Assembly: GCF_003449035.1 (NCBI RefSeq)
Contig: NZ_QRGB01000001.1
Span: forward strand, 2,170,001-2,234,000
DNA length: 64,000 nt
Direction of reading: 5' to 3'
Source: Pedobacter indicus
GTDB taxonomy: Bacteria; Bacteroidota; Bacteroidia; Sphingobacteriales; Sphingobacteriaceae
Positions 170 to 25,991 of the stretch are shown one piece after another (the first letter of the stretch is position 1; the number at the start of each line of letters is the position of its first letter). The translations under genes and the position numbers were made by a program. Under the pieces are notes generated by a model. That model searched no databases. It was given only the letters and a program-made list of their open reading frames with translations, and had not been told where the DNA came from.

Positions 170-181
170 TAATTGGAGATC

Positions 182-4896: not shown

Positions 4897-7869
4897 ATGA
4901 GTATGCGTATATTATTAGTGACCGCTTCCCTCTTATTGGCGCTTTGTAGCAATGGTTTTGCAATGGTGCCTACCACGGTGATCAGGCAGGATACCACGCT
5001 TCAGGATACATTGAATAATGATACCTTGCTTGTATTGGATAAGAAATATTCACAACTAGATTCCGTTTTCGTTTTAGCTCTAACGCAATCGATTACTCAA
5101 AATCCTTCTAAACTTGCAGAGTTCCCGGGTGTAGGTTTGCAACAGTTTCTAAAAGCCAATGCACCAGGTGTGTATATACAGGAATCAACAGGCGAACCGG
5201 GCGCGTTACAGCAAATGTATATCCGTGGAACAGCAATGCCACTGTTGACGAAAAGGGATATATATCAGACTCAGCCATTGGTTGTTCTAGATGGGATCCC
5301 ACTTATTAGTGACGAGCATCCTTTTGCTTTTGATATCCAAAATTACACGTTTAACAGGGTAGGTACAGCCACGAACTTGTTATCTCATATTGATATGAAC
5401 AATATAGCTCGTGTTGAAGTGCTTAAGGATCTATCGGGCGCTGCGATGTACGGGCCGATGGGTGCTAATGGGGTTATTATATTAACATCAAAGAATGCGG
5501 GTAACAAAAAGCGGATTAGCTTTAATTCGTATGTAGGGTTTGCTCAAAGACCATCTGTGACAACAATCAACGGAGAATATGAAAATGATTTTCGTAAGCA
5601 GTTTTATGATCGGTATACGAGCAATGGTCGCTACACAGACAATGACGTGTATCCTTTATACCTGAGCGACTCACTGAATAGCTCATATTACGGCCCCTCA
5701 AACTGGACTGATAGCTATTATAGAAATGCATTGGTACATAATATCAGTGCAGATATTTCAGGCGGGTCAGATCGGGCAAACTTCCGCTTTTCGGCAGGTA
5801 ATATGAAGAGTCAGGGGGTAGCTGATGAAACTGCATTAAACCGCTATAGTGTCATGTTTAATATTAATATTAAACCACTCAAATGGTTGTTGTTTTCTGC
5901 GATGGTTAATGGTAATAGGCTTGAACGCGACCGGAACAGAAGTATGAGAGATCGATTTTCTCAAATGAATTATATTCCAGATCTAAGCTCACCATTGGCT
6001 CCGAATAACGAAGTCTATAAAGGTTATCTGTCTAAATTTGGCGATGGCTTTGACGATAATTTCAATAATACGATTCAAGGACATGGGATACTGACCTTCA
6101 CGCTAGGTTCTTTTAGTCTAAAGTCGCGGCTTGCAGTTGATTATAATGAAGGTTACCGGGATTTGTTTTATGCACGGACTTTGTTAGAGGATAATAGTTA
6201 TGCGTCAAATTATTATGGGTTTAATCAGCGGTTGATTTTTGATAACGTTGCCTCCTATAACATTAATTTAAAAGAGAAACACCACGTCAATCTTGAACTG
6301 GGACAATCAATTCAGTGGGATTTTTTCAAATATAATAATGCATATGCCTATAAAGGGGTCAATGATTTTATTAAAATAAACTTAATTGAATCAGACCCTA
6401 ATAATGAAAACTATTTAAATCCTTTAGCTTTCCCTCGGGAATTGGTTTATAAATTCCTGGACAGAACCAGACAGAATATATTTTCCTTTCATGGCCGAGC
6501 TGATTATGCTTTTGAAGATAAGTACTCTCTTTCTTTACTCTTGAGAGCTGACGGCTCATCGAATGCCCAACCCACGAGCAGATGGTTTATCTCGCCAGTG
6601 CTTTCTCTTGGGTGGAATATCAAAAGCGATCTATTGTCCGACCATCAACAGGTGTCACGTCTTCATTTACGTGCCAGTGTTGGTCGTCTTGGCCGATTAA
6701 ATGCTTATGATAATTTCTCTCAGGGGCCGCAGTATACTGCTGATATTGGATTCACGGGGAACTTGACGATGGCGGGGTACAACGGTTTCGCCATCCTGTC
6801 TCGTCCTTACACCTTCGGTTGGGTGGGATATGGAATTCCTTGGGCATATACAGAACAGCTTAATTTGGGTGTTGATTTTGGTTTTCGCAATGATCGGTTC
6901 CGTGGTAGTTTGGATGTGTATACTAAGCATGATAAAAATCAATTGTTGGGCATGCCATCTTACGCTGAATATGGCTACAGCCAAGCGTATGAGGTAGGAA
7001 TGAATGTTAGGAATGTTGGTGCTGAATTGTTGTTCAGCGCCGATGTGTTGAAGTCTGACGGTAAGTCTCTAGGCTGGACATCTACTCTAAATTTTGGTTT
7101 TAATGAGAATCGGCTGACAGCGCTACCTGGTGGTGCTGATCAAATCATCATTGGAGATCGGCTTTTGCGAGTAGGGGAACCTATAGATAAATTTTGGTTA
7201 TTAGAAAATGAAGGTATCTATATGTCAGACGCCGAAGTTCCTGTTATCGAGGGACAGGCGCTCGCTTTTAACGGTATTCAGCTACGTGGCGGGGATCCAC
7301 GATGGAGGGATGTTGATGGTAATCATGCTATCAACTATAAAGATAAGACTCTTCAAGGCAATATTATGCCGAGAATAGCTGGTGGTTTTCTAAATGAATT
7401 TTCTTATAAAAAGATTTCATTAGGATTAAATTTCTACTATAATTTAGGTCGTTATCTAATTAATGAAGACGTTGCGAACCGGTTTAACTTCATCAATCGC
7501 GAGGGTACAACTGAAATTTCATCTGTTAAGGAAATTACGTTCTGGGAAAAACGGGGAGATTATACAAAGTATCCGATTTACAATCCTTGGAGCCCGGTTA
7601 TCGCCTATCGTTCAGACCAAGATCTATTTCTGGAAGATGCTTCGTTCCTAAAATTAAGGACAGTATCTGTCAGCTATGATGTAACGGAAATATTTGCGAA
7701 GCGGATGAAGTTTGACCGCGTATACCTTTATGCTTCGGCACACAACCTTTTTACCCTTACTTCTTATTCTGGTCAGGATCCTGAGTTAGTGGATTACACG
7801 GGTTATGATTCTGGATATGGGATGCCAATTCCCAGAACCTATACTTTGGGGGTAAAGGTTAATCTTTAG
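4897..7869 (+). CDS. SusC-like TonB-dependent receptor lacking the N-terminal CarboxypepD-type domain
   Basis: A 990-residue outer-membrane transporter, first gene of the surface operon. The frame is open from GTG 4849, but ATG 4897 (or 4903) begins an ordinary signal peptide, MRILLVTASLLLALCSNGFA. The plug follows almost at once: LQQFLKANAPGVYIQ, IRGTAM, LVVLDGIPL and VEVLKDLSGAAMYGPMGANGVIIL are the conserved SusC plug segments. The carboxypeptidase-regulatory-like domain that precedes the plug in the second SusC of this operon is missing here. The rest is barrel, ending RTYTLGVKVNL. The SusD partner starts 23 bp downstream. SusC/SusD pairs import large ligands with TonB energy; the ligand is unknown because no enzyme accompanies the pair. 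Confidence 0.92.
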   Translation: MSMRILLVTASLLLALCSNGFAMVPTTVIRQDTTLQDTLNNDTLLVLDKKYSQLDSVFVLALTQSITQNPSKLAEFPGVGLQQFLKANAPGVYIQESTGEPGALQQMYIRGTAMPLLTKRDIYQTQPLVVLDGIPLISDEHPFAFDIQNYTFNRVGTATNLLSHIDMNNIARVEVLKDLSGAAMYGPMGANGVIILTSKNAGNKKRISFNSYVGFAQRPSVTTINGEYENDFRKQFYDRYTSNGRYTDNDVYPLYLSDSLNSSYYGPSNWTDSYYRNALVHNISADISGGSDRANFRFSAGNMKSQGVADETALNRYSVMFNINIKPLKWLLFSAMVNGNRLERDRNRSMRDRFSQMNYIPDLSSPLAPNNEVYKGYLSKFGDGFDDNFNNTIQGHGILTFTLGSFSLKSRLAVDYNEGYRDLFYARTLLEDNSYASNYYGFNQRLIFDNVASYNINLKEKHHVNLELGQSIQWDFFKYNNAYAYKGVNDFIKINLIESDPNNENYLNPLAFPRELVYKFLDRTRQNIFSFHGRADYAFEDKYSLSLLLRADGSSNAQPTSRWFISPVLSLGWNIKSDLLSDHQQVSRLHLRASVGRLGRLNAYDNFSQGPQYTADIGFTGNLTMAGYNGFAILSRPYTFGWVGYGIPWAYTEQLNLGVDFGFRNDRFRGSLDVYTKHDKNQLLGMPSYAEYGYSQAYEVGMNVRNVGAELLFSADVLKSDGKSLGWTSTLNFGFNENRLTALPGGADQIIIGDRLLRVGEPIDKFWLLENEGIYMSDAEVPVIEGQALAFNGIQLRGGDPRWRDVDGNHAINYKDKTLQGNIMPRIAGGFLNEFSYKKISLGLNFYYNLGRYLINEDVANRFNFINREGTTEISSVKEITFWEKRGDYTKYPIYNPWSPVIAYRSDQDLFLEDASFLKLRTVSVSYDVTEIFAKRMKFDRVYLYASAHNLFTLTSYSGQDPELVDYTGYDSGYGMPIPRTYTLGVKVNL

Positions 7870-7892
7870 TTTAATCGAAAGAGTTCATAGAT

Positions 7893-9404
7893 ATGAAAGA
7901 GAAACACATAATTGCCATTTTATTATTCTGCATCGCTATTAGTGTAGGCTGTAAAAAAGTGTTGGATGTCGACTCGACAAGAACGGTGGCGGAGAAAAAC
8001 ATGTGGAATCAGATGGAGGATACACGTGCAGGTTTAATGGCCATTTACGGGCATGCCCGATCGGCAATGGCCGATCATAATGCCCATTGGCTTTATGGGG
8101 ACGTTCGAGCTGGTGAGTTTACTAGTCCGGTGCGACAAGACCTGCGTGCTATTATTAATAACGAACTGAATGCTTCTTATCCGTCAATTGAAGCGCTCTC
8201 TAATTGGAGAAGATGGTTTGCCGTTGTAAATTCAGCGAACCTTTTCCTTGAGCGTGTCCAAGATGTGAAAGACAGGGATCCGCGATATACGGAGAACAAC
8301 ATGACTGTGGATGTTGCACAAGCACGTTTCATGCGGGCATTTGCCTATTTCTGCCTGGTGCGTATTTGGGGTGATGTACCTTTTGTTATCACATCTCATG
8401 ATGGCAGCTTTGAAGATAAACCTCGTGAAGACCAACGTAAGATATTAGCTTGGGCTGAACAGGAGATGTTTGATGCAGCACAGGATCTCCCGTATAAGTA
8501 CAGTGCAGGTGATATTCAGCAACCGGGTAACTATTATAATGAGAATGAGACTAGATGGATGGGGGCTCTTGCGCGAAAACTGAGCGCGTACGCAGTACTT
8601 TCGCATATTGCGGCATGGCAGGGGAATTATACAGACGTTGCAACCTATACTAAGTTTGTCTTGGATAACTATGGAAAAGGATCGAATGGATACATCACGA
8701 CCGAACACTTAACCGCAGCGAACGGCTTTTTCCATCTAAAGCGACACAATCATTTGTTGGGCTTCAATTTCGACTGGGGGCATTTGGATGGCTCTTTTAC
8801 CGGTCATATAGAAGAGTTAACCTTAGCACAACCGGTTGTCAACAAGACTCTTCCCGATATTTATTTATCGAAAGACTCTATTCTATCCATATTTAATGAA
8901 TCGTTCGATGAACGCTTCAACCTAGATACCTTAGGTAGGCCGGGTACCGAAAGGTACTTTACCAACTTTAACGGTAAGTATCCAATTTTTAGCAAGATAA
9001 AGGTGATTATGGGAGGGAGCTCCGATCCGAACTTTCGGATTTTCTCAAGTGCCATTGTCTTTACTCGCTTGGAGGATATTACACTGTTGCGTGCTGAAGC
9101 TTTAGCAGTACTTGGTGAAACGCAGGGGGCAATAGAAAATTTGAACGTCATCCGCGAACTACGAAACCTGAAACCCTATGATGAGATTGTTAATGGCGAT
9201 TTAATCGATGAGATTTTTAATGAAAGGCAGAGGGAACTTATGGGTGAGGGGCATCGATGGTATGATTTGATTCGATATAATAAAATCAGGAAGACAGATC
9301 CCAATTTTACAAAACTAATTGAAGAAGGTGGTATTTACTGGCCGATATCGGAGTCGATTATTCAACAAAATTCGCTAATCGAGCAAAATCCATATTGGAA
9401 CTAA
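7893..9404 (+). CDS. SusD/RagB family lipoprotein, partner of the first SusC of the surface operon
   Basis: A 503-residue surface lipoprotein with lipobox ISVGC (Cys20). SusD signatures are the TPR region segment ARFMRAFAYFCLVRIWGDVPFV, the later DITLLRAEALAVLGE helix, the block FNERQRELMGEGHRWYDLIRY, and the end WPISESIIQQNSLIEQNPYWN. It forms the ligand-binding lid of the SusC gene 23 bp upstream. A fasciclin lipoprotein begins 10 bp downstream, so translation is probably coupled along the operon. Ligand unknown. Confidence 0.94.
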   Translation: MKEKHIIAILLFCIAISVGCKKVLDVDSTRTVAEKNMWNQMEDTRAGLMAIYGHARSAMADHNAHWLYGDVRAGEFTSPVRQDLRAIINNELNASYPSIEALSNWRRWFAVVNSANLFLERVQDVKDRDPRYTENNMTVDVAQARFMRAFAYFCLVRIWGDVPFVITSHDGSFEDKPREDQRKILAWAEQEMFDAAQDLPYKYSAGDIQQPGNYYNENETRWMGALARKLSAYAVLSHIAAWQGNYTDVATYTKFVLDNYGKGSNGYITTEHLTAANGFFHLKRHNHLLGFNFDWGHLDGSFTGHIEELTLAQPVVNKTLPDIYLSKDSILSIFNESFDERFNLDTLGRPGTERYFTNFNGKYPIFSKIKVIMGGSSDPNFRIFSSAIVFTRLEDITLLRAEALAVLGETQGAIENLNVIRELRNLKPYDEIVNGDLIDEIFNERQRELMGEGHRWYDLIRYNKIRKTDPNFTKLIEEGGIYWPISESIIQQNSLIEQNPYWN

Positions 9405-9414
9405 TTGTAATAAG

Positions 9415-10515
9415 ATGAAAAGAACGAATCTATATTTTTTAATCGTCAGCATTTTGATCGGTATCTCTTCCTGTTCAAAGGACAAGGGGTATTATAACCC
9501 GCCGATACTGAATAAAGATTTCCAAGGGAGTATTTATGATTATTTGAAGAGCAAACCCGGTGTCTATGATTCATTGTTGATAGCGGTAGATAGATTGGGT
9601 TTGGAGTCTACGTTAAGAGATAGCAATGTAACATTATTTGCACTTACAAATCCGAGTTTTCAATTGGCGGTCACCAATTTAAATAACCTTTACGCTCTTT
9701 CTGAAAAACCATTAGAGTATATCAGGACGGTGGATTACGATCAGTTGGATACGATGGTGACTCAATATATCATTAAGGGAAGTTATCCGGCAGACAGCCT
9801 TCGCCATCAAGATGGTTTGGCTCTTCAAGGGGTGAAATATAAATATCCGATGCATGCGAAGGTTATCAAATCTACTTCTTCCGGTTATATTGAAGGTGGG
9901 CCAGAGTTGATCCAATTGAGTGATACGAAAAGAAGTCAGTTTACACGCGACTGGATTGGTACCTCAACTGCGTCTATTAATATTCAAACTGGAAATGGAG
10001 TTGTCCATGTGATTAGTCCAGATCACGTTTTTGGTTTCGAAGACTTCATCACGCGTCTGACATTCAATCCGCCACCGCCTAACCTATTTAAACTCTATGG
10101 AGGCACCTATACGGTGTCACGGGAAAGTGGGGGCGGCCCCAATGGCGTAGAGGGATCTATGAATTCGATTGACGGGAACCCGGAGACTAAATTCTTGGTG
10201 GGATGGAATCCAAGTAATGTCACGTTAACCTTTGAGTTGTCGGAAGCAGTTATCGCTGGTGCTTATACCATTACTTCTGCAAATGACGCTCCAGATAGAG
10301 ACCCTGCAGACTGGAATTTACAGGGCTCTGTAGATGGCGAAACGTGGATTGCTTTGGATAGCAAGAGTAATCAGTCATTTGAAGAACGTTTCCAGCAAAA
10401 GGTTTTCTTCTTCCCTAATACGATTGCTTATAAGTTCTACAGACTGAACATTACGAGAAATAATGGAAGTGATGGGATGCAGTTTGCTGACTGGACTGTG
10501 AATTTTAGAAAATAG
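9415..10515 (+). CDS. Fasciclin-domain lipoprotein with C-terminal discoidin-like domain
   Basis: A 366-residue lipoprotein (lipobox ISSC, Cys20). Residues about 35-205 resemble a FAS1 fasciclin fold: GSIYDYLKSKPGVYDSLL, then SNVTLFALTNPSFQ, and the closing NGVVHVISPDHVFGFEDF. Residues about 225-366 resemble an F5/8 type C (discoidin) beta sandwich, with SANDAPDRDPADWNLQGS and YKFYRLNITRNNG. Both folds bind other proteins or glycans and neither is an enzyme, so a surface adhesion or ligand-presentation role is inferred. A very similar discoidin-like segment ends the PKD lipoprotein at 22045-23097, and a second fasciclin protein is at 16404-17135, so modules are repeated within the operon. Confidence 0.82.
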   Translation: MKRTNLYFLIVSILIGISSCSKDKGYYNPPILNKDFQGSIYDYLKSKPGVYDSLLIAVDRLGLESTLRDSNVTLFALTNPSFQLAVTNLNNLYALSEKPLEYIRTVDYDQLDTMVTQYIIKGSYPADSLRHQDGLALQGVKYKYPMHAKVIKSTSSGYIEGGPELIQLSDTKRSQFTRDWIGTSTASINIQTGNGVVHVISPDHVFGFEDFITRLTFNPPPPNLFKLYGGTYTVSRESGGGPNGVEGSMNSIDGNPETKFLVGWNPSNVTLTFELSEAVIAGAYTITSANDAPDRDPADWNLQGSVDGETWIALDSKSNQSFEERFQQKVFFFPNTIAYKFYRLNITRNNGSDGMQFADWTVNFRK

Positions 10516-10519
10516 CTGA

Positions 10520-11650
10520 ATGTTTAATGTTATGTATAGATTAAATAGAAATATAAAACAAAAGTTGAGTTCGCTTTTTAAACTCACTTTTTTGATTGCT
10601 ATGTGCTTATTGCTTTTCTCTGGATGCAAAAAACTTTATAACCTCCCGGATGAGAAGGAATACTTGAGCGGAAAAATCGACTATAGTAATAAAATTATAG
10701 AGCCAGTAATAGGTAGATGGAACTTGCATGGTGGGATCAACATCGATAATTCAAGTTTGCCATTAAAATTTGAGATAGTCAACGCTCGTTATGGCGACGG
10801 GCGACCCGTAACAGACATTTTCCAAGTAAGGCCTACTTATGTATGGATAGCCGCATATGATGGACTTGAAACGAGCCTCGAAGAGATTGAGGCTAAGCGA
10901 AAAATAGAAGATCATCCCATTTTCGAAGTTAGAGAATCTGGAGAATTCATCCTGTGGCCATCGGCTACCAATGAACTGCTTGAGCCGCGTCCTTCAGATA
11001 GCAGTAACCTGGCACAAGACACTCGTTTTTTTGACTTGAAGATAAGTAATACGGGTGGCGAGATCATTTTGAAAGATTTTCAGTTGAGACCTTGGCGGGA
11101 GCGAGAATACTATCCTGATAATGATATAAATCACTATACAGGTGAAGTTCGACGCGATCCGAGAGACCCTTTTAATCCGAATAGGCGTGATTATATCAGA
11201 CCGTGGTTAGATAATGTCATAGGTGCAAACACACTAAAGTCACTCGTTAGCAACGATGATAAAAAAGATGCCGTTGTTTACATACGTCGTTTTGAAGGGG
11301 GGAACGGACATAACCTTCGCTTTAAGGTATTGGATACAGATAGTGTACCAATGAACCCAGCATTATTCAATGAAACTAAGTGGGAGGAAATGGTTCATGG
11401 GTTTAATATGGAGATTACGGACGAATATGTCCAGTATGATGTGGCTTATCCAATTCCTTTGGTGTCTGCATTGAATACAAAATACGCTAGCGGTGGAAAT
11501 GCTCATGCTAATATTCGCTATTCACGGAGAGGGTTTGGAGGCGATTTGACAACGGGCGCTTTTGGTGTGGATTTTCGGATTTACCGTCCGGGCGACTGGG
11601 AAATTGTATTCCATTTTAAGAACGATAACCCAAAGTTTGAGGATGAATAA
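10520..11650 (+). CDS. DUF5007-type surface lipoprotein
   Basis: A 376-residue lipoprotein with a long basic N-terminus and lipobox LLFSGC (Cys36); ATG 10532 is an alternative start that shortens the signal peptide by four residues. The rest matches what I recall of DUF5007, a Bacteroidota-only family of about this length next to SusC/SusD genes. No catalytic motif is visible. The protein is rich in charged and aromatic residues (RPWREREYYPDNDINHYTGE) and its ending looks like beta strands (DFRIYRPGDWEIVFHFKN). It begins 4 bp after the fasciclin gene. The TAA at 11648-11650 lies 19 bp before the preferred start of the next SusC. Function unknown; the assignment to DUF5007 is from memory. Confidence 0.7.
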   Translation: MFNVMYRLNRNIKQKLSSLFKLTFLIAMCLLLFSGCKKLYNLPDEKEYLSGKIDYSNKIIEPVIGRWNLHGGINIDNSSLPLKFEIVNARYGDGRPVTDIFQVRPTYVWIAAYDGLETSLEEIEAKRKIEDHPIFEVRESGEFILWPSATNELLEPRPSDSSNLAQDTRFFDLKISNTGGEIILKDFQLRPWREREYYPDNDINHYTGEVRRDPRDPFNPNRRDYIRPWLDNVIGANTLKSLVSNDDKKDAVVYIRRFEGGNGHNLRFKVLDTDSVPMNPALFNETKWEEMVHGFNMEITDEYVQYDVAYPIPLVSALNTKYASGGNAHANIRYSRRGFGGDLTTGAFGVDFRIYRPGDWEIVFHFKNDNPKFEDE

Positions 11651-11669
11651 TTATCATTTAAAGTTTTCT

Positions 11670-14600
11670 ATGATGAAAAGATACCTAGTTATCATAATGT
11701 TATTGCTAGCCATCGACCCGATAGGGATCCTTGCGCAAGAAAGAGTCACGGTGTCAGGGGTGGTTACAGATGAATCTAACTTAAGTATTCCCGGCGCGAC
11801 AATATTGTCAGGTAACCCACTAAAGAGTATATCAAGTACAAATAATAATGGAGAGTTTAGGGTATCTGTAGAAGATAATGCAACCTTGGTGTTTCGCTTT
11901 ATTGGTTTTATTGAAAAAAGAGTGACCCTTAAACGTGGACAGACAACATTGACCGTTCGTATGGCCGAAGATGTTAACGAAATGGAAGCGGTGGTTGTTA
12001 GAGGGTATGTTACACGTTCTAAAGAATTAAGCACCGGATCTTCTTATAGTATTAGTGGAGATAGAGTGCAGGACGTCCCTGTTGCGAATATCGAGCAATT
12101 ATTGCAAGGTAAAGTACCGGGGCTGAATATTCAGGTTAATACGGGAGCACCGGGTTTTAGAGGATCGACATCAATACGGGGCTTATCTTCATTGTCGATT
12201 ACAGGGCAAGGGAGTTCTTCTTTTTTACAACCAACATCACCTTTATATGTGATTGACGGAGTGCCTATGGACGCAGATCAAGCCTCTGAATTTGGGTTCC
12301 AACAACAGGGACCAGGTGTTAGTCCGGTTTCGATGATCCCTCAGGAGGATATTGAAAGCATTGAGATTTTAAAGGATGCACAAGCTACGTCGTTATATGG
12401 ATCTAGAGCAGCTTATGGAGTAATCATTATTACTACCAAACGTGGAAATTCAGAAGTGCCAAGAATTCGCTACACACAGAACACATTTATGCAAAGACCT
12501 CCTAAGCTGCGTGAAACACTAGGTGGGAATTTAGAGAGACGCTTGAAAATCAAGCAAATTCTGGAAAATGCACTAACAGATGAGGAAATCCGTAGAATAT
12601 CGAGTACTCCGTTCCTTTCAGACAGTTTAAATGCCTTTTTTAATAATTCAACGAATTGGCAGGATGTTTTTTACCGCACCACTTATAATCAAACACATAA
12701 CCTAGCTATTGATGGTGGGGATCCGAAGTTTAATTACAAAGCCAACCTGAATTACTATTCTGAGAAAGGCGTGATCCGGAATACCGGTTTCGATAGGTAT
12801 AATCTGACGATGCGGATGGAATATCAACCGAACGAAAAATTTAAAATTGTAGGATCAGTCTTCGGAGGTATAGGTAAGCAGAATAAAGGTGAAGGGGTAG
12901 GTCTGTTTCAAACCGGTGTTGCTAATAATGGTATGGCTTCCACTTTGTTACCCGGTCCTTCCTTCTTTCAGTCGTCAGGTGGGGTGGTTGCGGCTTTGGA
13001 AACAGATAATCAGAACAGTGCAAGGGACATTCGAACCAATGTGGAGGCAAGTTATATGTTTATTCCAGGGTTGCGAGCTTCAACAAACCTAAGTTATGAC
13101 TTTAATTCAGATACGGAAGACACCTTTACTCCGGCTGCGGCAAATGGTCAATTCGCCAAGGTGTATTCGTTCAATGGGCGGAATGACCGTCTATACAATC
13201 GGAGTGCAATCACCTATGCGAAAACCTTTAATGAAGATCATAATTTATTCATCAACACTTTTAATGAGGTGTATATCGAAAGCAGGCAACATTCGATGAC
13301 GCGGCAAGAAAGAACGCCTAACGATCAATTTCAGGGTCCTTTGGGTTTTGACGCCTATTATTCGCGTGGCGGGGGTATTCATCAAAACTTTAGAGATTTT
13401 CGTTCTGCGTCTTATGCTGCTGCAGCTTCTTACGATTACAAAAAGAAATACGTGGTCGACTTGTCCTATCGCCTAGACGGAACCTCGGGTAGCGGTATTG
13501 ATAATCCTTATTCAAAAAACCCAGCGGTTGGATTGAGGTGGAATTTTCACCATGAAAAATTTCTAGAGAAGTTCGATTGGTTGGATTATGGAGCTTTTCG
13601 TTTAAGTTGGGGAATGAATATTAATCCCAATTCATCATTGGTGGATATTTATGGACAGTATAATATAAACGGGAGATATAATGGTGGACAAGGTATCGGG
13701 ATTGATTTTAACTTGATTCCTAACCCGACCCTGAAGCCAACAACCACTACCCAGTATAATTTTGGTTTTGATATCGGACTCTTTAATGGATTGGCTAATC
13801 TGAACTATGATACCTATTACAAAAGTGTCGAAAATATGATAATCGATCGCTACTTGTCGAATGTTTCAGGGTTCAATGTGCTGAAGAGTAACGACGCGAG
13901 TATTGTAAACTACGGACATGAATTGGCGTTGACATTCAATCCTATCCGACAAGGTGATTTCACTTGGCAATTGTCTTTTAATGGAGCCATTAATAACGAC
14001 GTTTTGACCAAACTGCCCGATGAATATAATGGACAGATGATCCGGTGGGACGGTGACCAAAATTATTTACAACATACTGTCTTTAGGGTTGGAACCAACA
14101 CGCTTTCCAATTTTTTACGGATTAACGAAGGGGTTTATTCTACTGACGCAGATGTGCCGGTTGACCCTGTGACAGGTTTACCCTATTTAACGGGAGGCAG
14201 ATTTTTTGAAGCCGGAGATCCCATTTTTAAAGACTTAAATGGTGATTACGTTTTAGATAGCAGAGATTATCAAATAACAGGTAATTCCCAGCCTAAATTT
14301 GTCGGAGGTATCGCGACGAATGTAGGATACAAAAATTTTAGGTTGGATGTATACATGTCCTATACTGCAAAACGTACCATTTTAAATAATGCTTTAGCGG
14401 ATCGGTTGAAGTTAATGCGTGACCCTTTTGGTGATCGTGCTGTCGTGCCATTGGATGACTTGGACATGTGGATGGCACCCGGAGACGTTGCCAAATATCC
14501 TTATGCCTATGATTTTACACGGTTCGATAATATTCAACCTTTTAGGGCGGATCAAACTTTATGGCAAGAGGATGGCAGTTACTTAAAGCTGAATAGTGTT

Positions 14601-14804: not shown

Positions 14805-14815
14805 TAGGTCGATCG

Positions 14816-16381: not shown

Positions 16382-16403
16382 AAGAGGCTTCATTAGGAAT
16401 ATT

Positions 16404-17135
16404 ATGAAAACATTAATGATACATAAATTTAGAAATCGCGTGTGGAAGCTAGTATTGATGCTTATGGTATTGTCTGCTTGCACAAAAGATGATTATTATG
16501 TAGAGGGCGGTGTAGCAAATGGTAGGTTTGATGGGTCAGTTTTGCAGTATCTGGAGTCAAAGCCTGTCGAGTTTGATTCTGTTGTTCAGATTGTCAAATT
16601 AGCCGGCCTGGATGATTATCTGACAACTGATGAATTGACTTTTTTTGCTCCAAGAGATGAAAATATCAAAGAGTTGATTGGTGCGCTCGATCGGGGTGGT
16701 TTAAATAGACGATTATATAACGAGGGTAAAGATACGGTTAAAGTATTAAGTGACGTCGATTCGTTAATATGGAGAAAGTATCTACAACGCCACATGTTCA
16801 GGGGAAAGAACAAATTGATGGATTATCCGCAAATTGATTTCGGACAACAAACCATATACCCTGGACAAACCTACTATTCCTATAATAATTCTGTTAGTAA
16901 TATTGGTGTGGTGTACAACGATGCCGGAGGTGTTAAGTATATGGGTTATAGACAGCTGCATATCTCATACATTCCAGATATATCCCGGCCAACGGCTGGT
17001 TGGCGGACGGTAAGAGTAGCCTCATCCGATATTGAGGCTGATAATGGAATTGTGCATGTACTGGATGTCAATGGTGGTGAGCTTGGTTTTGATCGAGGGG
17101 AAATCGAGAATGAAATTGCGGAAAGTAAACGATGA
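16404..17135 (+). CDS. Fasciclin-domain lipoprotein
   Basis: A 243-residue lipoprotein. The frame is open from ATG 16353 inside the SusD gene; ATG 16404 is preferred because the signal peptide then runs cleanly to lipobox VLSAC (Cys26). The mature part is a single FAS1-like domain: DGSVLQYLESKPVEFDSVVQ, ELTFFAPRDENIKELI, then the terminal strand DNGIVHVLDVNGGELGF. It is a paralogue of the N-terminal half of the protein at 9415-10515 (compare YLKSKPGVYDS with YLESKPVEFDS) but has no discoidin-like tail. FAS1 domains mediate adhesion or binding; role here inferred from family only. Confidence 0.82.
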   Translation: MKTLMIHKFRNRVWKLVLMLMVLSACTKDDYYVEGGVANGRFDGSVLQYLESKPVEFDSVVQIVKLAGLDDYLTTDELTFFAPRDENIKELIGALDRGGLNRRLYNEGKDTVKVLSDVDSLIWRKYLQRHMFRGKNKLMDYPQIDFGQQTIYPGQTYYSYNNSVSNIGVVYNDAGGVKYMGYRQLHISYIPDISRPTAGWRTVRVASSDIEADNGIVHVLDVNGGELGFDRGEIENEIAESKR

Positions 17136-17186
17136 TTGTATCAAGTCAACCTTCTTTAGTTTTTTAATAATAAGCGAATCTAAATT

Positions 17187-18812: not shown

Positions 18813-18831
18813 CATTGTAAATAAATAAATT

Positions 18832-20550
18832 ATGAAAATATTTTCTAGATTCAGGGGGAACTCATTTACGGCTTTGCTTGCCTTTTGCGTAGGAGGGCTT
18901 ATCGTCTCTTCATGTCAGCAGGAATTTTCAAGGCTCATTCCGGATGAGGAATATAATGATTCAGTTTCGGTGACTTATGGTAATCCGAAAGTACTCTATT
19001 TAGTCGTTGACGGGGCGAGAGGGCAGTCAGTTCGCGATGCGCGTACAAAAAACATAACCGCTTTGCTCTCAAAATCTATCTATACATGGGTTTCTTTGAG
19101 TGACGAAACCGCTAATGACAAAGGTACCAATTGGGCCGATATGTTGACCGGCGTAAATAAAGACAAACATGGGGTCTTGGGTAACGATTTTTCTAACAAT
19201 AATTTAGAGAGTTATCCGCTTGTGTTTGATCGATTGAAAGCGTACGATGCAAACACTGAAATCAATGTTTATACAAGTTCACAGATATTTAAAAATAACT
19301 TGACATCTTCAGCAGACGTTAGCGAGTTCTTCACGACGGATACTCAGGTTAAAGAAGCCGTAATAACAAGTTTAGGAGATGAGTCAGCATCTTTTATTAT
19401 GGGGCATTTCACGTCTGTTGATCAAGCAGGTGCACAATATGGCTATGATATAAGTGTACCAGAATATAAAAATGCTATTGTAGATTTTGATGATTATTTA
19501 GGTGAAATTATTGAAGGGTTAAGAGCACGACCAAATTATGACACAGAAAATTGGCTAGTCATTGTAGCGTCTAGCAGGGGAGGGCACTATGTTTTGCCGG
19601 ATACTGAAAATGATAACACCATTTTTAGCAACACAGATGCTAATACATTTACTATCTTTCATTCAAGCCGTTATTCGACAAGATTTATTGGAAAGCCATA
19701 TTTGGGTAACCGCTACCAGGGTAGTTTCTTAAAATTTAATAACCAAGTGAATGCGCAGGTTACCGAGGGCGATAATTCGATTTATAACCTAGGTAATGAC
19801 GAATTTACGATTGAAATCAAAGTCAAGAAAAACCTGGGTCCAAACAATAATTATAAATTTTATTATCCGTCAATCCTAGGTAAGCGACCTGAGTGGTCAT
19901 CAGGTTGGCCATCAAATGGATGGGTGATTTTCTTGGAAGATAATTTTTGGATGTTCAATGCGCGCGGTACTGGTGGCGGTGAACAGGTGAGGGGTGGTAC
20001 CTTGTCAGATGCCACTTGGAATAGCTTAGCCGTTGTGGGTGTCAAGAGGGACAATAGACGATATGTACGAACTTTTACGAATGGTAACTTTAATAACGAG
20101 AGGGATATTACCGATTGGGGCAATTTAGACAATGCAGCCGATTTGACGCTAGGATATATAAATGGAAACGGTCATCGAGAACCTGATGCTTATTTAAGTG
20201 ATATCCGCATCTGGAAAGCCGCATTACCAGACTCTGTCATCAATCGATTCTCTTGTGACACGTATGTTGATCCAGGTCACCCGTATTATGACTACTTAAT
20301 AGGCTACTGGCCAGTAGTAGAGGGAGAAGGGAACATAATTAAAGACGAAGGCCCATTTAGTAGCCATATGACCTACAATGGCGATCCAACTTGGGATCGT
20401 TTGGCGGAGTATATCTGCGCACCCTCTATCGAGGATTTAGGTTCATTGGTGCCACGAAATATGGATATCCCGGCGCAAATCATAAGTTGGTATAAAATAC
20501 CCCGACAGGAAAGTTGGCAATTAGATGGTCGGGTTTGGCTAGATCAATAA
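18832..20550 (+). CDS. DUF4983/LamG lipoprotein with a degenerate alkaline-phosphatase-like domain
   Basis: A 572-residue lipoprotein (lipobox VSSC, Cys28). Residues about 50-290 have the fold signals of the alkaline phosphatase/NPP superfamily: VVDGARG (Asp60), KGTNWADMLTG with the usual nucleophile position Thr99, and a DxxG block at 197-200. However, the family's DxxGH has Ala201 instead of His, and the SDHG motif reads SSRGG (Ser248, Arg249), so three expected metal ligands are absent and hydrolysis is unlikely. Residues about 305-480 form a LamG/concanavalin-like domain (DEFTIEIKVKK, LTLGYINGNG), and the last 85 resemble DUF4983 (PSIEDLGSLVPRNMDIPAQI). Likely a glycan or protein binder on the surface; the pseudoenzyme reading is inference from motifs. 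Confidence 0.78.
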   Translation: MKIFSRFRGNSFTALLAFCVGGLIVSSCQQEFSRLIPDEEYNDSVSVTYGNPKVLYLVVDGARGQSVRDARTKNITALLSKSIYTWVSLSDETANDKGTNWADMLTGVNKDKHGVLGNDFSNNNLESYPLVFDRLKAYDANTEINVYTSSQIFKNNLTSSADVSEFFTTDTQVKEAVITSLGDESASFIMGHFTSVDQAGAQYGYDISVPEYKNAIVDFDDYLGEIIEGLRARPNYDTENWLVIVASSRGGHYVLPDTENDNTIFSNTDANTFTIFHSSRYSTRFIGKPYLGNRYQGSFLKFNNQVNAQVTEGDNSIYNLGNDEFTIEIKVKKNLGPNNNYKFYYPSILGKRPEWSSGWPSNGWVIFLEDNFWMFNARGTGGGEQVRGGTLSDATWNSLAVVGVKRDNRRYVRTFTNGNFNNERDITDWGNLDNAADLTLGYINGNGHREPDAYLSDIRIWKAALPDSVINRFSCDTYVDPGHPYYDYLIGYWPVVEGEGNIIKDEGPFSSHMTYNGDPTWDRLAEYICAPSIEDLGSLVPRNMDIPAQIISWYKIPRQESWQLDGRVWLDQ

Positions 20551-20599
20551 AGTTTTGCTGAAAGTGGTTTTTAGTAATTAATAAGAAAAATAAACAAGT

Positions 20600-22030
20600 A
20601 TGAAAAGACTTACTTATTATATATCCGGGGCTATACTCATCTTTTGTTTAGCACATCTTTATTCATGCCAGAAGCGTGAATTAGAAGATTTCTCGCTGGC
20701 TAAAGGTACTGGCCTCACAGTTTCAGCGGGAACTATTATCGGAGAGGTGGAAAAAAATAATGAAAATGTCGCGTTCGAAGTTGGTATCTCTTTGTCAGCC
20801 CCTGCAGATAAAGCTTTCCAAGTCGGACTAGAATTAAACAATGACACCATCAATGCCCTTATCGAAAGTGGAACGTTAGAGAATACAGTACCGGTTCCTT
20901 TGGGTTCATTCACAATTCCTAATGTAGCGGTTGTTCCATTCGGGGTAGATTATGCAAAATTTAAAATTCAAGTCAGTATTTCGGCGTTCGAACGTAACTA
21001 TGGTAAAAAGTTAGCACTGGCGATTAACCTAGTAGATCCTACGAAAGGAAACAAGACAGATGGCGATAGTCAAACAGCCATCTTGATGCTTGATTCGAGA
21101 GAACTTCTTGAAGAGAGTGAAATTCATTATCTGTCTGTTACTAATCAGGAGAATGGGATACTAAATGTCGAACGAGGCGTTAATTACCGTGTTTCATCAG
21201 CTGGGCTTACTATTCCCTTGGGAATTAGTCTCGCCGGCGTTCCCGGGCGCTCTTATACTGTCAAAGCCGAATACAATATAGATACCATTGCTTCTCTGAT
21301 TGCCAGTGGTATACTTCCCGATAATATTAAAGCACTTCAAGAAAACGAATTTAATTTGGATACCCTCATTAATGTTGGGAGCAACATTAGCGACGCGCCG
21401 TTTGAATTTAGTATTCCGTGGAATACAATGGATAATAACTTGGAAAATCCGGTGGCTGTAGTTATTAGTTTACGGGATCCTTCACGACATGTTCTGCATC
21501 CGGTAGAAAAAACTGTTGTCGTTATTGTCGATCCCTCTGTCAGCCTTGACAACAACTCCTACCTTCCTGGATCGGGAAGTGGGTTGCTTGCCGAGTATTT
21601 CAAAGGCACTCAACTCCTTGATGAAGATGGCAGGCAACCCGACTTGGTTAGGATAGATGAGCGTATTGACTTCGTTGGATGGGAACCTTTTCCGGGTGCG
21701 GGCGATAATTGGTCAGTTAGGTGGACAGGGGAATTCTTTGCACCGGTTCGTGGCGAATATACCTTCTATCAAACACAGTGGGACGATGGAGCCCGGCTCA
21801 TTGTTGACGGAAAAGTTTTGGTTGACGATTTCACTACAGAATGGGATAAACCGACTCGGTTTGGCAGGATATTCCTCGAAAGAGGTCAACGTTATACTAT
21901 TGAAGCGCATCATCGTGAAAATGTTGGAGGACAACAAGCGAAATTAGAATTTGAAGTTGCTTCCGAGGGCATTGCTAGACAGATTATACCTCGATCGCTT
22001 TTATATCCGGCTGGTCAAACTGAGGAATAA
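20600..22030 (+). CDS. DUF1735 lipoprotein with C-terminal PA14 domain
   Basis: A 476-residue lipoprotein (lipobox YSC, Cys23). Two DUF1735-like beta sandwiches occur at about 40-155 and 175-310, with matching phrases FEVGISLSAPADKAFQVGLELN and TIPLGISLAGVPGRSYTVKAEYN. Residues about 325-476 are a PA14 domain: SGLLAEYFKGTQLL, FFAPVRGEYTFYQTQWDDGARLIVDG and RYTIEAHHRENVGGQQAKLEF. PA14 domains bind glycans in adhesins and glycosidases; DUF1735 proteins often sit beside SusC/SusD as surface glycan-binding proteins. No enzyme motif. It lies 49 bp after the DUF4983 gene and 14 bp before the PKD gene. Confidence 0.85.
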   Translation: MKRLTYYISGAILIFCLAHLYSCQKRELEDFSLAKGTGLTVSAGTIIGEVEKNNENVAFEVGISLSAPADKAFQVGLELNNDTINALIESGTLENTVPVPLGSFTIPNVAVVPFGVDYAKFKIQVSISAFERNYGKKLALAINLVDPTKGNKTDGDSQTAILMLDSRELLEESEIHYLSVTNQENGILNVERGVNYRVSSAGLTIPLGISLAGVPGRSYTVKAEYNIDTIASLIASGILPDNIKALQENEFNLDTLINVGSNISDAPFEFSIPWNTMDNNLENPVAVVISLRDPSRHVLHPVEKTVVVIVDPSVSLDNNSYLPGSGSGLLAEYFKGTQLLDEDGRQPDLVRIDERIDFVGWEPFPGAGDNWSVRWTGEFFAPVRGEYTFYQTQWDDGARLIVDGKVLVDDFTTEWDKPTRFGRIFLERGQRYTIEAHHRENVGGQQAKLEFEVASEGIARQIIPRSLLYPAGQTEE

Positions 22031-22044
22031 ATATTTATTATTAA

Positions 22045-23097
22045 ATGAATCTAAAGATGGTAAAGAGACAAAATATATTTTACATTGCTTATCTCATTTT
22101 TATGACGATGGTGATCGTCTCGTCATGCAGCAAAGAAGAAGCTCTTCCTCCTGTCGAAGTAGATCAGCCAAAACCCACAGCTGATTTTAGCTATAAGTTA
22201 GTGGATGAAAACGATCCGTTTACAATTGTATTCGATAATGCGTCGTCTAATTTTGATGAAGTGCGGTGGGAATTTGGTGACGATAGCACTACGTATGATG
22301 AGAATCCGACTCATACTTATATTAATACTGGTGAATACAAGGTACGGATGATTGTTACGAATGAACAGGGCTATTGGGCACAGAAAGAAACGGTAATCGA
22401 ATTGTTTCCCGATAGTTTATTAGGTTTTAAAGCAGATTTGGGTGGAGACGGACTATTAACACTTTCATTAAACAGGCCATTTAATAGTCAGTCCATTGGA
22501 TGGTTCAAAGGACAAGGTACACTTGCCGAACAAGTTGGAGAAGGTGAAACAGCAAAAATATCGGTTGATCCAGGTGTCTTTGAGCAATATTCAGTAAGAG
22601 TTGTCACGCCAAAAGGATCTAAAATTGAAGTGGACGCTTTGGTTAGTACTCAAGGAGTCGTAAATGATGTTACGGAACAAGCGTATTTTTCCGTCTCGCG
22701 AGATAATGACCAGGGTAAGACCGCAGGAGAGGGCTCGTTAAAACTAATCGATAATAACCGCCAATCGAAATTTCTTCAATTTAACTATACAGGAGATTTG
22801 TGGACCCAGTTCGATTATGACAATAAACCAGTAGTGATTAGCGCTTATATGGTGACGTCGGCTAATGATGCCCCGGAACGAGACCCTAAGGATTGGGTTT
22901 TAGAAGCTTCGGATGACGGTGTCGCATGGATTGTGTTAGATTCACAAGTGGATCAGATATTTGAAACCCGGTTTTTGGAAAAAATATACATCTTCGAAAA
23001 TATTACTCCATATCGCTACTATCGGATGAATTTTAAAGCAAATCAGGGAGCCGGGTTAATTCAGATTGCGGAGTTGAGATTACTGAGTAAACCTTAG
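22045..23097 (+). CDS. PKD-domain lipoprotein with discoidin-like C-terminal domain
   Basis: A 350-residue lipoprotein (lipobox VSSC, Cys28; ATG 22057 is an alternative start). Residues about 45-122 are a PKD domain with the hallmark WEFGDDSTTYDENPTHTY. Residues about 215-350 look like an F5/8 type C domain: SANDAPERDPKDWVLEAS and YRYYRMNFKANQGAG closely parallel the C-terminus of the fasciclin protein at 9415-10515 (SANDAPDRDPADWNLQGS; YKFYRLNITRNNG). PKD and discoidin modules are non-catalytic binding or spacer domains. Position near the end of the surface operon supports a structural or ligand-binding role. Confidence 0.83.
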   Translation: MNLKMVKRQNIFYIAYLIFMTMVIVSSCSKEEALPPVEVDQPKPTADFSYKLVDENDPFTIVFDNASSNFDEVRWEFGDDSTTYDENPTHTYINTGEYKVRMIVTNEQGYWAQKETVIELFPDSLLGFKADLGGDGLLTLSLNRPFNSQSIGWFKGQGTLAEQVGEGETAKISVDPGVFEQYSVRVVTPKGSKIEVDALVSTQGVVNDVTEQAYFSVSRDNDQGKTAGEGSLKLIDNNRQSKFLQFNYTGDLWTQFDYDNKPVVISAYMVTSANDAPERDPKDWVLEASDDGVAWIVLDSQVDQIFETRFLEKIYIFENITPYRYYRMNFKANQGAGLIQIAELRLLSKP

Positions 23098-23142
23098 CAG
23101 CTAGATCAATAAATAAATATGTCGTATGTATAGTCCGTAATT

Positions 23143-25878
23143 ATGAAAAGATCTGCTCTCTTGTATTTTTTGTTTCTGTTTATGATACCTTTTCAAGGTT
23201 TTTCACAGAATATGTTGGAGCAGATTATTAATCCCCTCGAGCAGTGGGCGGACCGTTTTCCACAAGAAAAGGTTTACATCCATATGGATCGACCGTATTA
23301 TACTTCAGGTGATACGATCTGGATGAAAGCTTATATCATGGCAGGAGGCAGGCATCAACTATCTGCTATTAGTGGAGCGGTTTATGTAGATTTGATCAAT
23401 GAAACCGATTCATTAACTGCTGCATTAAAGCTTCCAGTAATGGCTGGTTTGGCCTTTGGGAATATTGATTTACCTGTTGACTTGGAGCCTGGAAACTATC
23501 GACTAAGGGCATACACGCAATGGATGCGTAATGGAGATCCCGACTATTTCTACGATCATCCATTTATAATAGGCAGTATCGCTCCGAAAAAAGCAAACTC
23601 AAAGATTTCCTTTTCGTATGATCAGGACGGTTCAGATCCTCGTCTGTTGGCAACTATTAGTTATTTAGATAGTAATTCGAAACCTATTGCTGATGAGCGG
23701 ATCTTTTATCAAATTAGGACTGCAAATGAAGTTATCCTTACAGATAATGTAAAGACTGACACAAATGGCCAATTGGAAATCGAAGTGAAAACATCAGTAC
23801 TTGAAAAAAAAGGGGTTGATATCAATAGCCTATATATTTTAAGTGAGGTTGAGACAGAAAAAAACCAATGGGACAGACAAACTTTTCCCATTCCTTATCA
23901 GAAGGCCGATGTTCAATTCTTTCCGGAGAGCGGTCATCTAGTGGCAGGGCTGCCTGTACGGGTAGCTTTTAAAGCGATAGGCGCTAAAGGCTTAGGTGTC
24001 GATATGAGAGGAGTTGTAAAAGACTCGAAAGGTAACGTCGTTAGTGAATTTCAAAGCGAACATCTTGGTATGGGTGTATTAAACATCACACCATCTGAGG
24101 GTGAATCCTATGAAGCTGTTGTAGAATTGCCCGATGGAACAAGTTTGACTGCCGCCTTGCCCGATGTTCTGCCACAGGGTTACGTCCTTAGTATCTTTCC
24201 GCAAGCGGAAAGCGATACATTGGTTGTGCGTATCTTATCGTCTGATCAAAGCTTTGGTTCGGTTAGTTTAATTGCTCAAAATAATGGTGAGGTGCTGTTT
24301 GCCGGAGGCTTCGATATCAATAAAAGTCTTAACACCTTGCGGCTTCCAATTCAAGATTTTCCTCTAGGTATTACGCAGTTTACTTTGTTTAATGCAGATG
24401 GGAAGCCTGTGAATGAAAGGTTGGTGTTTATTGAAAAGTTTGATGAATTTACTGTTGTTCCGGAACTGGATAAAGAATCTTACGGTGCTCGTGAATTAGT
24501 CAAATTGAGCTTAAAGGCTGTCGATTCTAATAACAATTTGGTGCGAGGACGCTTTTCGGCTTCCGTTATTAACGAAAATGATATCGCTGTCGACCCTGAA
24601 TCCGAAAGTTCTATATTTTCTGAGCTACTATTGCGATCTGAAATTAAGGGCTATATCGAAAAACCCAATTATTATTTTACGGACATTGATACAAAGAAAA
24701 CGGATCATCTGGATATTTTAATGTTAACACAAGGGTATCGGAAGTTTAACTGGGACACATTACTTGCCAATGAATTAGCGCCTATTGAATTTCCACCAGA
24801 GGAATTGACCACGAAAATCAACGGTAAACTGCAGACTCTACTGGGCAAACCAGTAGCAAATGGGAACATTATCCTGAATTCTTTTGCCGCACAGGTGACT
24901 TTAGATACTATAACTGACGAAAAAGGCAATTTTGTTTTTGACAATTTATTGTTGACCGATAGCCTAAGCTTTTCTGTTCAAGGTTTATCTCCAAAGGGGA
25001 AGGACAATGTTGAGATTTTATTAGATGGTATACCGGGTATGCCGATTACTTCAACACGAAACCGAGGTGACTATATGATTGATCCACAAGATTCGTTGAA
25101 AACGTATCTTGAAAGGGTTAAAAAGAATGATGATGCTCTTTCTAAATTGGGCTTAGAAAGCCGAGTTATTCACCTTGAGACGGTGACTGTTACCAAACAG
25201 TCGAGCATCCGAAGCTCTAGTAATTTAAATCCTTCGGGGAGGGCGGACCAAACGATTTCTGCTAACGAACTGAAGGCTTGCCCTACGTTGCGATCCTGTT
25301 TAGAAGGTCGGTTACGTGGTGTACGTTTTGTAACCGAACAAACAAGTGTCGGACCGGTAAGCTTCCCGGTAACTACGCGGGGGAATGGTAAAATGCAGGT
25401 GCTCATCGACGGTCGCCTTCTCCGCCAAGACAGTGAGGGTGATTTGATGGATATCGCGGGAGTCTTTGATCAGAATATGATAGACCCGGCAAGCATTTTA
25501 AATATTGAAGTATTACGATCACCATCATTAACAGCTGTATACGGTTCAGAAGGATCCAACGGTGTTATTATTATCAATACAAAAGGGTGGACTCCCGGCC
25601 AGCGTACGGTTTATAATATTAAAACATATACCCCTCAGGGTTATAGCAATGTCAGGGAGTTCTATTCGCCGAAATATGGGGTTAGCGATCTTCTGGATAC
25701 TAAGGCAGATACAAGGAGTACAATTTATTGGAATCCGATTGTGCAGACGGATGCATCCGGAGAAACATTACTAGAGTATTATAACGCTGGTGAGGGCTCA
25801 TACCGTGTCGTTATCGAAGGTGTAGCCATTGATGGAGGCATCACCAGAAAGGTCATCAGGTACAATGTTGGTAATTAG
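23143..25878 (+). CDS. Macroglobulin-like protein with TonB-dependent receptor plug domain but no barrel
   Basis: A 911-residue exported protein (signal peptide to about GFSQ, residues 19-22). The N-terminal part is of the MG2/alpha-2-macroglobulin-like kind common in Bacteroidota (KVYIHMDRPYYTSGDTIWMKAY, about residues 43-64). A carboxypeptidase-regulatory-like sandwich follows at about 555-640 (GKPVANGNIILNS). Near 705-815 is a plug domain (ACPTLRSCLEGRLRGVRFV, MQVLIDGRLLRQ, IEVLRSPSLTAVYGSEGSNG). After it only about 90 residues remain, ending in a macroglobulin-like strand set (IYWNPIVQTDASGETLLEYY), so there is no 22-stranded barrel. Its plug might contact SusC, TonB or an accessory protein. 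It is the last gene of the operon; function unproven. Confidence 0.82.
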   Translation: MKRSALLYFLFLFMIPFQGFSQNMLEQIINPLEQWADRFPQEKVYIHMDRPYYTSGDTIWMKAYIMAGGRHQLSAISGAVYVDLINETDSLTAALKLPVMAGLAFGNIDLPVDLEPGNYRLRAYTQWMRNGDPDYFYDHPFIIGSIAPKKANSKISFSYDQDGSDPRLLATISYLDSNSKPIADERIFYQIRTANEVILTDNVKTDTNGQLEIEVKTSVLEKKGVDINSLYILSEVETEKNQWDRQTFPIPYQKADVQFFPESGHLVAGLPVRVAFKAIGAKGLGVDMRGVVKDSKGNVVSEFQSEHLGMGVLNITPSEGESYEAVVELPDGTSLTAALPDVLPQGYVLSIFPQAESDTLVVRILSSDQSFGSVSLIAQNNGEVLFAGGFDINKSLNTLRLPIQDFPLGITQFTLFNADGKPVNERLVFIEKFDEFTVVPELDKESYGARELVKLSLKAVDSNNNLVRGRFSASVINENDIAVDPESESSIFSELLLRSEIKGYIEKPNYYFTDIDTKKTDHLDILMLTQGYRKFNWDTLLANELAPIEFPPEELTTKINGKLQTLLGKPVANGNIILNSFAAQVTLDTITDEKGNFVFDNLLLTDSLSFSVQGLSPKGKDNVEILLDGIPGMPITSTRNRGDYMIDPQDSLKTYLERVKKNDDALSKLGLESRVIHLETVTVTKQSSIRSSSNLNPSGRADQTISANELKACPTLRSCLEGRLRGVRFVTEQTSVGPVSFPVTTRGNGKMQVLIDGRLLRQDSEGDLMDIAGVFDQNMIDPASILNIEVLRSPSLTAVYGSEGSNGVIIINTKGWTPGQRTVYNIKTYTPQGYSNVREFYSPKYGVSDLLDTKADTRSTIYWNPIVQTDASGETLLEYYNAGEGSYRVVIEGVAIDGGITRKVIRYNVGN

Positions 25879-25951: not shown

Positions 25952-25991
25952 ATATTTTTATCGAAATTTGAAATCATTATTTAACCAATTC

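Follow-up and report, generated by a model that had tools for sequence, protein, structure and literature searches.

What does an operon import when it holds two SusC/SusD pairs and no recognised working enzyme, and which enzymes cut its substrate? The question is raised by twelve genes of Pedobacter indicus (Sphingobacteriaceae), all confirmed on the plus strand at 4897-25878 by the list of open reading frames (ORFs) of the window, as we call the 64,000-nucleotide stretch that was analysed (assembly GCF_003449035.1, contig NZ_QRGB01000001.1, positions 2,170,001 to 2,234,000 of the forward strand). The operon is very probably a capture and import module. In the fuller reading, which we consider probable, both SusC/SusD pairs capture and import a glycoprotein or proteoglycan-like polymer that is cut by partner enzymes, and an arabinogalactan-protein (AGP)-like polymer is the most likely substrate across the family; for P. 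indicus itself, an AGP-like substrate is proposed only tentatively.

A conserved core with two import systems

The module is built of known families and is of the polysaccharide utilization locus (PUL) type, conserved and enzyme-poor. Where a PUL is recognised by at least one SusC/SusD pair, this operon has the two that the initial annotation had reported, identified by PF07980 and PF14322 in the SusD proteins and by TIGR04056 in the SusC proteins (455 and 670 bits). Where a PUL is recognised by enzymes in the locus, Pfam returned no enzyme family over the twelve genes besides a phosphatase fold without its metal ligands, and GtaA-like and DUF1080 genes flank them.

The operon is not peculiar to its own genome. 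DUF5007, the family of gene 4 (Table 1), was matched in 104 of the 251 Sphingobacteriaceae genomes sampled, in 5 of 395 genomes of a phylum sample and in 3 of 251 genomes of another family's sample, all three in the genus of Paraprevotella clara, and a DUF5007 search of plasmids gave no match. From the strong matches in Sphingobacteriaceae, 40 loci of 20 kb were hand-picked, several per genus (30 of the window type and 10 of a second, sister subtype), and their gene orders were taken from a simple longest-ORF caller. Genes 1-9 stand in identical order in 37 of these loci, a recurrence that is more than chance. The exceptions are L044 and L079, where gene 7 was not called (in L079, moreover, SusD1 is present twice or split in two), and L058, where gene 4 was not called, though the DUF5007 match that selected the locus lies there.

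Nine to eleven of the twelve genes keep the same order in many relatives. Gene 10 is present in 29 of the 30 window-type loci versus none of the 10 loci of the second subtype, nine of which carry in its place an M60-domain protein and a second phosphatase-like protein (M60 was identified by scanning two proteins and by BLAST for the rest); L079, an intermediate locus, lacks both. Gene 12 is outside the conserved unit and mostly absent in relatives: it directly follows gene 11 in 2 of the 21 window-type loci with long flanks (the window and G447), and in G608 it appears three genes later. The nine-gene order was also seen in P. clara, in another genome of its genus (G844) and in a Bacteroides metagenome-assembled genome (MAG; L094). 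Sphingobacterium hungaricum KB22 carries both locus types (L063 and L095); in L095, genes 1-8 are followed by an M60 gene after 1.7 kb that yielded no ORF call.

Both SusC and both SusD proteins were found in all 40 loci, and for this reason import is preferred to adhesion alone; of the surface capture or adhesion first suggested for this locus, capture is the part retained. Adhesion often makes use of fasciclin, discoidin, PA14, PKD and Ig-like folds, and with no recognised working enzyme inside the operon they would suit an adhesion or surface-display machine for a host, algal or plant surface, in which the SusCD pairs serve as anchors or for secondary uptake. We consider such a machine quite improbable, since the pairs are constant whereas the remaining membership varies, enzymes are repeatedly found next to the loci, and a published relative lies in a nutrient locus (PMC3243724, from the part of that paper available).

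Dead enzyme domains and predicted folds

Members of the alkaline phosphatase superfamily bind metal through the motif D..DxxGH..DH. Of the 53 phosphatase-like domains examined, 52 still have the first Asp, none has the DxxGH His and a single one has the Asp of the DH pair; the His of that pair is retained in 2 of 43 first copies of the domain versus 9 of 10 second copies. Judged by these residues, the domain is dead in all 53 copies, which bears out the damaged phosphatase fold of the initial annotation. Among paralogues from the same genome taken as controls, L157 shows the phosphatase motifs and L156 does not. The HExxH motif of M60 domains is retained in 9 of 12, one of those a partial sequence, and is missing from G607 (L072), P. 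clara (L087-L089) and G844. With the phosphatase dead in all copies examined and M60 in one branch, it is conceivable, though doubtful, that the module is a dual-transporter receptor in which former enzymes now act as conserved glycan-binding subunits, the nine-gene order reflecting one large complex whose two pores take up different parts of one glycoprotein.

Structures were predicted for two accessory proteins, those of genes 4 and 8 (predicted local distance difference test scores, pLDDT, in Table 1). The DUF5007 model gave no Foldseek match at E <= 0.001; among the VIA-align matches listed, which cover residues 46-195 and barely probe the second half, are Ig-, cadherin- and S-layer-like sandwiches with Z up to 7.4. 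DUF5007 is accordingly predicted to consist of Ig-like sandwiches, a likeness that may reflect only a common arrangement. The gene 8 protein is predicted to combine a TIG-like domain with a propeller, residues 124-541 matching seven-bladed-type propellers of many functions at Z of about 20-21. The auxiliary nutrient binding proteins BACOVA_00264 (4hw6, E 1.5e-6) and BT_3476 (3tc9, E 9.9e-6) are the fourth and twelfth of the Foldseek matches listed for it, but at 10-12% identity and template modelling (TM) scores below 0.4, and many other propellers score alike. Sequence searches returned only three chance-level epimerase chains for DUF5007 (E 0.08; none using a profile), only weak matches to designed trefoils for gene 8, and no match for gene 9; the GtaA-like protein encoded upstream gave one weak match, a beta-glucuronidase.

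A hydrolase hidden among the accessory proteins had been named by the initial annotation as one finding that would overturn its view. In the two proteins folded no clear one appeared; Ig-type sandwiches and propellers were found instead, the gene 8 list carrying two enzyme titles.

The mechanism we propose begins with the presumed surface lipoproteins, that is the fasciclin-discoidin, Ig-like DUF5007, TIG-propeller DUF5008, dead phosphatase-LamG, PA14 and PKD-discoidin proteins, which would bind a large glycoconjugate. Its fragments would be handed to two SusD-capped SusC barrels of different specificity, and the cutting would fall to enzymes that differ per lineage: GtaA-like proteins next to many loci of the window type, M60 in the sister type and a GH43 galactanase in the Paraprevotella-like branch. 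The substrate would be glycoprotein- or proteoglycan-like, for the family as a whole most likely resembling plant AGP.

Partner enzymes and the substrate

Flanks of up to 20 kb per side were read for 30 loci and the window (G634 without its upstream flank). Among the non-Sus neighbours of window-type loci a GtaA-like gene is the commonest: 7 of 21 loci have it directly adjacent and one more has it 19 genes off; in the window it lies upstream, 475 bp before the operon. The 29 genomes searched hold 34 GtaA copies spread over 21 genomes, and at least 10 of these copies stand beside a window-type core: the seven, and L166-L168, which were read since their coordinates hinted at adjacency. A rough Poisson estimate gives 0.3 expected against the at least 10 observed, with a p-value that is untrustworthy because the estimate assumes 1.5 loci per genome and independent genomes. 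P. indicus has a single GtaA gene, the one beside the operon, and G461 has none.

Other enzymes recur around the core. GH43, GH92 and BSP genes flank a few loci (a BSP-family peptidase stands beside L065), the sister lineage has its M60 peptidase gene inside the operon, and in the window a 3-keto-disaccharide hydrolase gene follows 89 bp downstream. In G607 a GH43_24-like gene is found at -5 and a sensor similar to that of P. clara at -1. The initial annotation saw no degradative enzyme and supposed that breakdown happens elsewhere. The former holds for the twelve genes themselves, in which none was recognised, but has to be qualified for their surroundings and for the sister operons; the latter is too strong in view of the adjacent GtaA-like genes, the M60 genes and the DUF1080 hydrolase.

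A glycoprotein substrate is suggested by the GtaA and GH92 neighbours together with M60, since an M60 protein of Bacteroides thetaiotaomicron degrades mucins (PMC3267712, in the portion available). A link to arabinogalactan comes from the gut branch. P. clara YIT 11840 (L087-L089, L092) has genes 1-9 in the window's order, but a degenerate M60 and a second dead phosphatase where the window has genes 10-12, a sensor-like gene upstream, and divergent GH43 genes. Its GH43 matches 6euf at 741 bits, an entry whose molecule is named beta-glucanase and which we take to be BT0265; other entries that it matches bear the names galactan 1,3-beta-galactosidase and exo-beta-1,3-galactanase. The sensor-like gene has BLAST relatives in G607 and G495, the three being named by reading and BLAST. 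Through this GH43 neighbour and published work the gut branch is tied to arabinogalactan; the window branch, unlike it, is not.

The same neighbours can be read differently. Import of peptides or glycopeptides in the manner of RagAB, with the GtaA-like protein a true glutaminase and M60 the cutter, overlaps with our reading and would account for the GtaA adjacency, the preserved HExxH of most M60 domains and the BSP-family peptidase. We regard it as unlikely, given the GH43 and GH92 genes beside other loci, the GH43 galactanase beside the P. clara core and the response of BT0268, a B. thetaiotaomicron susC, to arabinogalactan (PMC6874557, as far as its available text goes). A stronger rival, plausible though in our judgement less likely than not, holds that one chassis serves a different polymer in each lineage, the window's version serving the targets of GtaA and the DUF1080 hydrolase. 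It disputes the substrate only and is compatible with capture and import. The variation of neighbouring enzymes by lineage (GtaA, GH92, GH43, BSP, M60) speaks for it, as does the lack of GH43_24 in P. indicus; conservation of the nine-gene order, which a shared task would predict, speaks against it.

Several observations weigh against capture and import of an AGP-like glycoconjugate with partner enzymes. Seven of the 10 GtaA-adjacent loci come from a single genus. GH43_24 lies near just 1 of the 31 loci with flanks (G607; the window included and one locus without upstream flank), and P. indicus has no GH43_24 match at E 1e-3. In both G607 and P. clara, the galactanase-linked loci checked, M60 has lost HExxH, which weakens the case for peptide cutting there. 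The Foldseek matches listed for gene 8 include 3kya, a putative phosphatase, and the enzyme CylK (7roo), so that gene 8 could still be an enzyme. No dedicated regulator adjoins the operon among the ORFs read from a LacI-like gene about 14 kb before it to position 29379. The link to B. thetaiotaomicron consists of published names, and the contig scan with the P. clara DUF5007 gave four loci, none from that species.

The same GH43_24 query matches 105 of the 251 family genomes at 1e-30, many of them probably through other GH43 subfamilies. Genome-wide co-occurrence of GH43_24 and DUF5007, for which the lists were compared by eye, looked weak, and both genome size and other GH43 subfamilies were entangled with it; nothing was drawn from it.

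Layout, origin and comparison with known systems

From gene 1 to gene 12 the spacings are 23, 10, 4, -17, 11, -29, 51, 19, 49, 14 and 45 bp. The single strand proposed for the twelve genes therefore stands and the unbroken series of gaps does not: 2 of the 11 junctions are overlaps (17 and 29 bp), the others gaps of 4 to 51 bp. Most accessory domains assigned at the outset were recovered by Pfam (Table 1), whereas LamG, the DUF1735-like part, MG2 and the F5/8C domain of gene 11 reached only sub-threshold matches, the LamG-like middle of gene 9 through Toxin_R_bind_N and the N domain of gene 10 through a BT_3987-like match. A leader followed by an early cysteine, as in lipoproteins, was read in genes 2-4 and 6-11. 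The transcript may be longer than twelve genes, extending as far as 29379, because the next gaps are only 89 and 4 bp.

Table 1. Features of the operon and its surroundings (window coordinates).
Feature	Position	Strand	Basis and remarks
SusD of upstream unit	173..1810	+	its SusC starts before the window
GtaA-like six-hairpin protein, last of upstream SusC-SusD-GtaA unit	1965..4421	+	PF16335 476 bits, PF17168, PF16334
Intergenic region, 475 bp, presumed promoter region	4422..4896	+	coordinates only
Gene 1, SusC1, 990 amino acids	4897..7869	+	plug; no CarboxypepD domain detected; TIGR04056 455 bits, above cut-off
Gene 2, SusD1 lipoprotein	7893..9404	+	PF07980, PF14322
Gene 3, fasciclin + F5/8C (discoidin-like) lipoprotein	9415..10515	+	Pfam
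Gene 4, DUF5007 lipoprotein, Ig-like sandwiches predicted	10520..11650	+	PF16398 190 bits; model mean pLDDT 92
Gene 5, SusC2 (plug, barrel, CarbopepD_reg_2)	11634..14804	+	TIGR04056 670 bits; start taken at 11634
Gene 6, SusD2 lipoprotein	14816..16381	+	Pfam (PF07980, PF14322)
Gene 7, second fasciclin lipoprotein	16353..17135	+	PF02469
Gene 8, DUF5008 (TIG-like) + DUF5122 propeller lipoprotein	17187..18812	+	Pfam; model pLDDT 90.5
Gene 9, pseudo-phosphodiesterase + LamG-like + DUF4983 lipoprotein	18832..20550	+	Pfam Phosphodiest; metal ligands lost
Gene 10, DUF1735-like N part + PA14 lipoprotein	20600..22030	+	Pfam; N part sub-threshold
Gene 11, PKD + F5/8C lipoprotein	22045..23097	+	Pfam; F5/8C sub-threshold
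Gene 12, MG2-like + CarboxypepD-like + plug, without barrel	23143..25878	+	Pfam; MG2 sub-threshold; accessory
3-keto-disaccharide hydrolase (DUF1080), possible read-through member	25968..27386	+	PF06439 90 bits; 89-bp gap
Protein with C-terminal cytochrome c domain	27391..29379	+	PF00034; 4 bp after preceding gene

An exact copy of the 12-mer TTTTATCGAAAT lies in each of the two gaps at the ends of the operon (4693-4704 and 25956-25967). If one mismatch is tolerated, the 12-mer has 5 matches in the window against 1.3 expected, a number reached in 2 of 100 shuffles, and it is a possible site of a shared regulator. Elsewhere in the window, 53879-57490 encodes a 1203-amino-acid protein that reads as a metallophosphoesterase at its N end and an outer-membrane beta-barrel at its C end, and two minus-strand ORFs (57487-58506 and 58340-60409) overlap by 167 bp, the longer reading as a polyphosphate kinase. 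L155 (G000:C1:2150001-2170000) holds, by reading, genes resembling xylose isomerase and xylulokinase together with a LacI-like regulator, some 9 to 13 kb ahead of the window and close to another SusC/SusD set. The genome also has three DUF4998 (PF16389) matches (L001-L003).

The repeated order SusC-SusD-fasciclin had been ascribed to duplication and divergence, and the SusD tree agrees. SusD1 and SusD2 each form one clade (support 100), and together with seven single-cassette SusDs they group apart from 13 other SusDs with a Shimodaira-Hasegawa-like approximate likelihood ratio test (SH-aLRT) support of 98. Because both SusDs group with these relatives, the operon looks like a cassette duplicated before the sampled loci diverged. 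The single cassettes, L170-L176, share the four-gene order of the operon's first third, SusC-SusD-fasciclin-like-DUF5007-like, in 7 of 7 fetched, although BLAST did not recognise the gene at the fasciclin position in L171 or in the nearly identical pair L174 and L175; the cassettes differ in having one SusCD pair and a weak DUF5007 match, and genes 8-11 were not found beside them. In L170 a GH2-looking gene before the cassette and a DPP-IV-looking peptidase after it were noted by reading. Recent tandem duplication is ruled out by the 24-25% identity of the operon's paralogue pairs (25% over 216 columns for genes 7 and 3) and by the separate clade of each paralogue across the sampled loci. Near its end, gene 11 shares 42% identity over 129 columns with the discoidin-like region of gene 3.

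Transfer between the two families is possible. By SusD1 (96) and SusC1 (89), P. clara and the Bacteroides MAG belong with G607, whereas by SusC2 they fall outside the 15 rows from Sphingobacteriaceae (99) and by SusD2 they have no settled position; given this disagreement, transfer was not taken as established. Two G461 rows were left out of the SusC and SusD trees; the SusC tree is unrooted, so that a sister relation of SusC1 and SusC2 is not readable from it, and one row labelled outgroup (out_G401b_18) falls inside SusC1.

The nearest described system is the arabinogalactan locus of B. thetaiotaomicron, BT0262-90 (PMC3243724), known to us here, like the other papers cited in this section, from the portions available. 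Its susC BT0268 responds to arabinogalactan (PMC5061871, PMC6874557), its sensor BT0267 is listed as an arabinogalactan regulator (PMC3878776), and a BT0267 mutant reached 78.9% of wild-type growth (PMC3243724); in PMC13088901 the locus is labelled substrate unknown. The names published for BT0269-75 include, in order, SusD, hypothetical, DUF5007, SusD and DUF5124, and those for BT0277-79 are carbohydrate-binding, alkaline phosphatase family and hypothetical (PMC10434189). These genes stand in a table of the iron-dependent stimulon, which would favour iron- or haem-linked uptake; the same table passage holds other SusD-bearing loci (PMC10434189), BT0268 responds to arabinogalactan, and no siderophore-receptor family scored above its cut-off, which leaves this explanation highly improbable. 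In the open-licence literature, as far as seen, an enzyme-poor module with two pairs was not found described as a unit, almost nothing was found on DUF5007, and nothing with DUF4983 or DUF5008.

By published names alone, BT0268-BT0279 (in PUL5) resembles the window in its order of susC, SusD, DUF5007, SusD and phosphatase, and the core order SusC-SusD-fasciclin-DUF5007-SusC-SusD is present in the window and P. clara, and in B. thetaiotaomicron as far as those names go. It is unlike the window in its sensor BT0267; in the window no sensor adjoins the operon, and P. indicus gave no GH43_24 match. Descriptions of SusCD systems usually have a single pair accompanied by its own glycosidases; here the unit conserved in genomes of two families is an import core of two pairs in which no working enzyme was recognised, and the enzymes are exchanged around it. 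The comparison provides functional leads for DUF5007, DUF5008 and DUF4983, and the role of each accessory protein can be tested directly in the arabinogalactan locus of a model gut bacterium.

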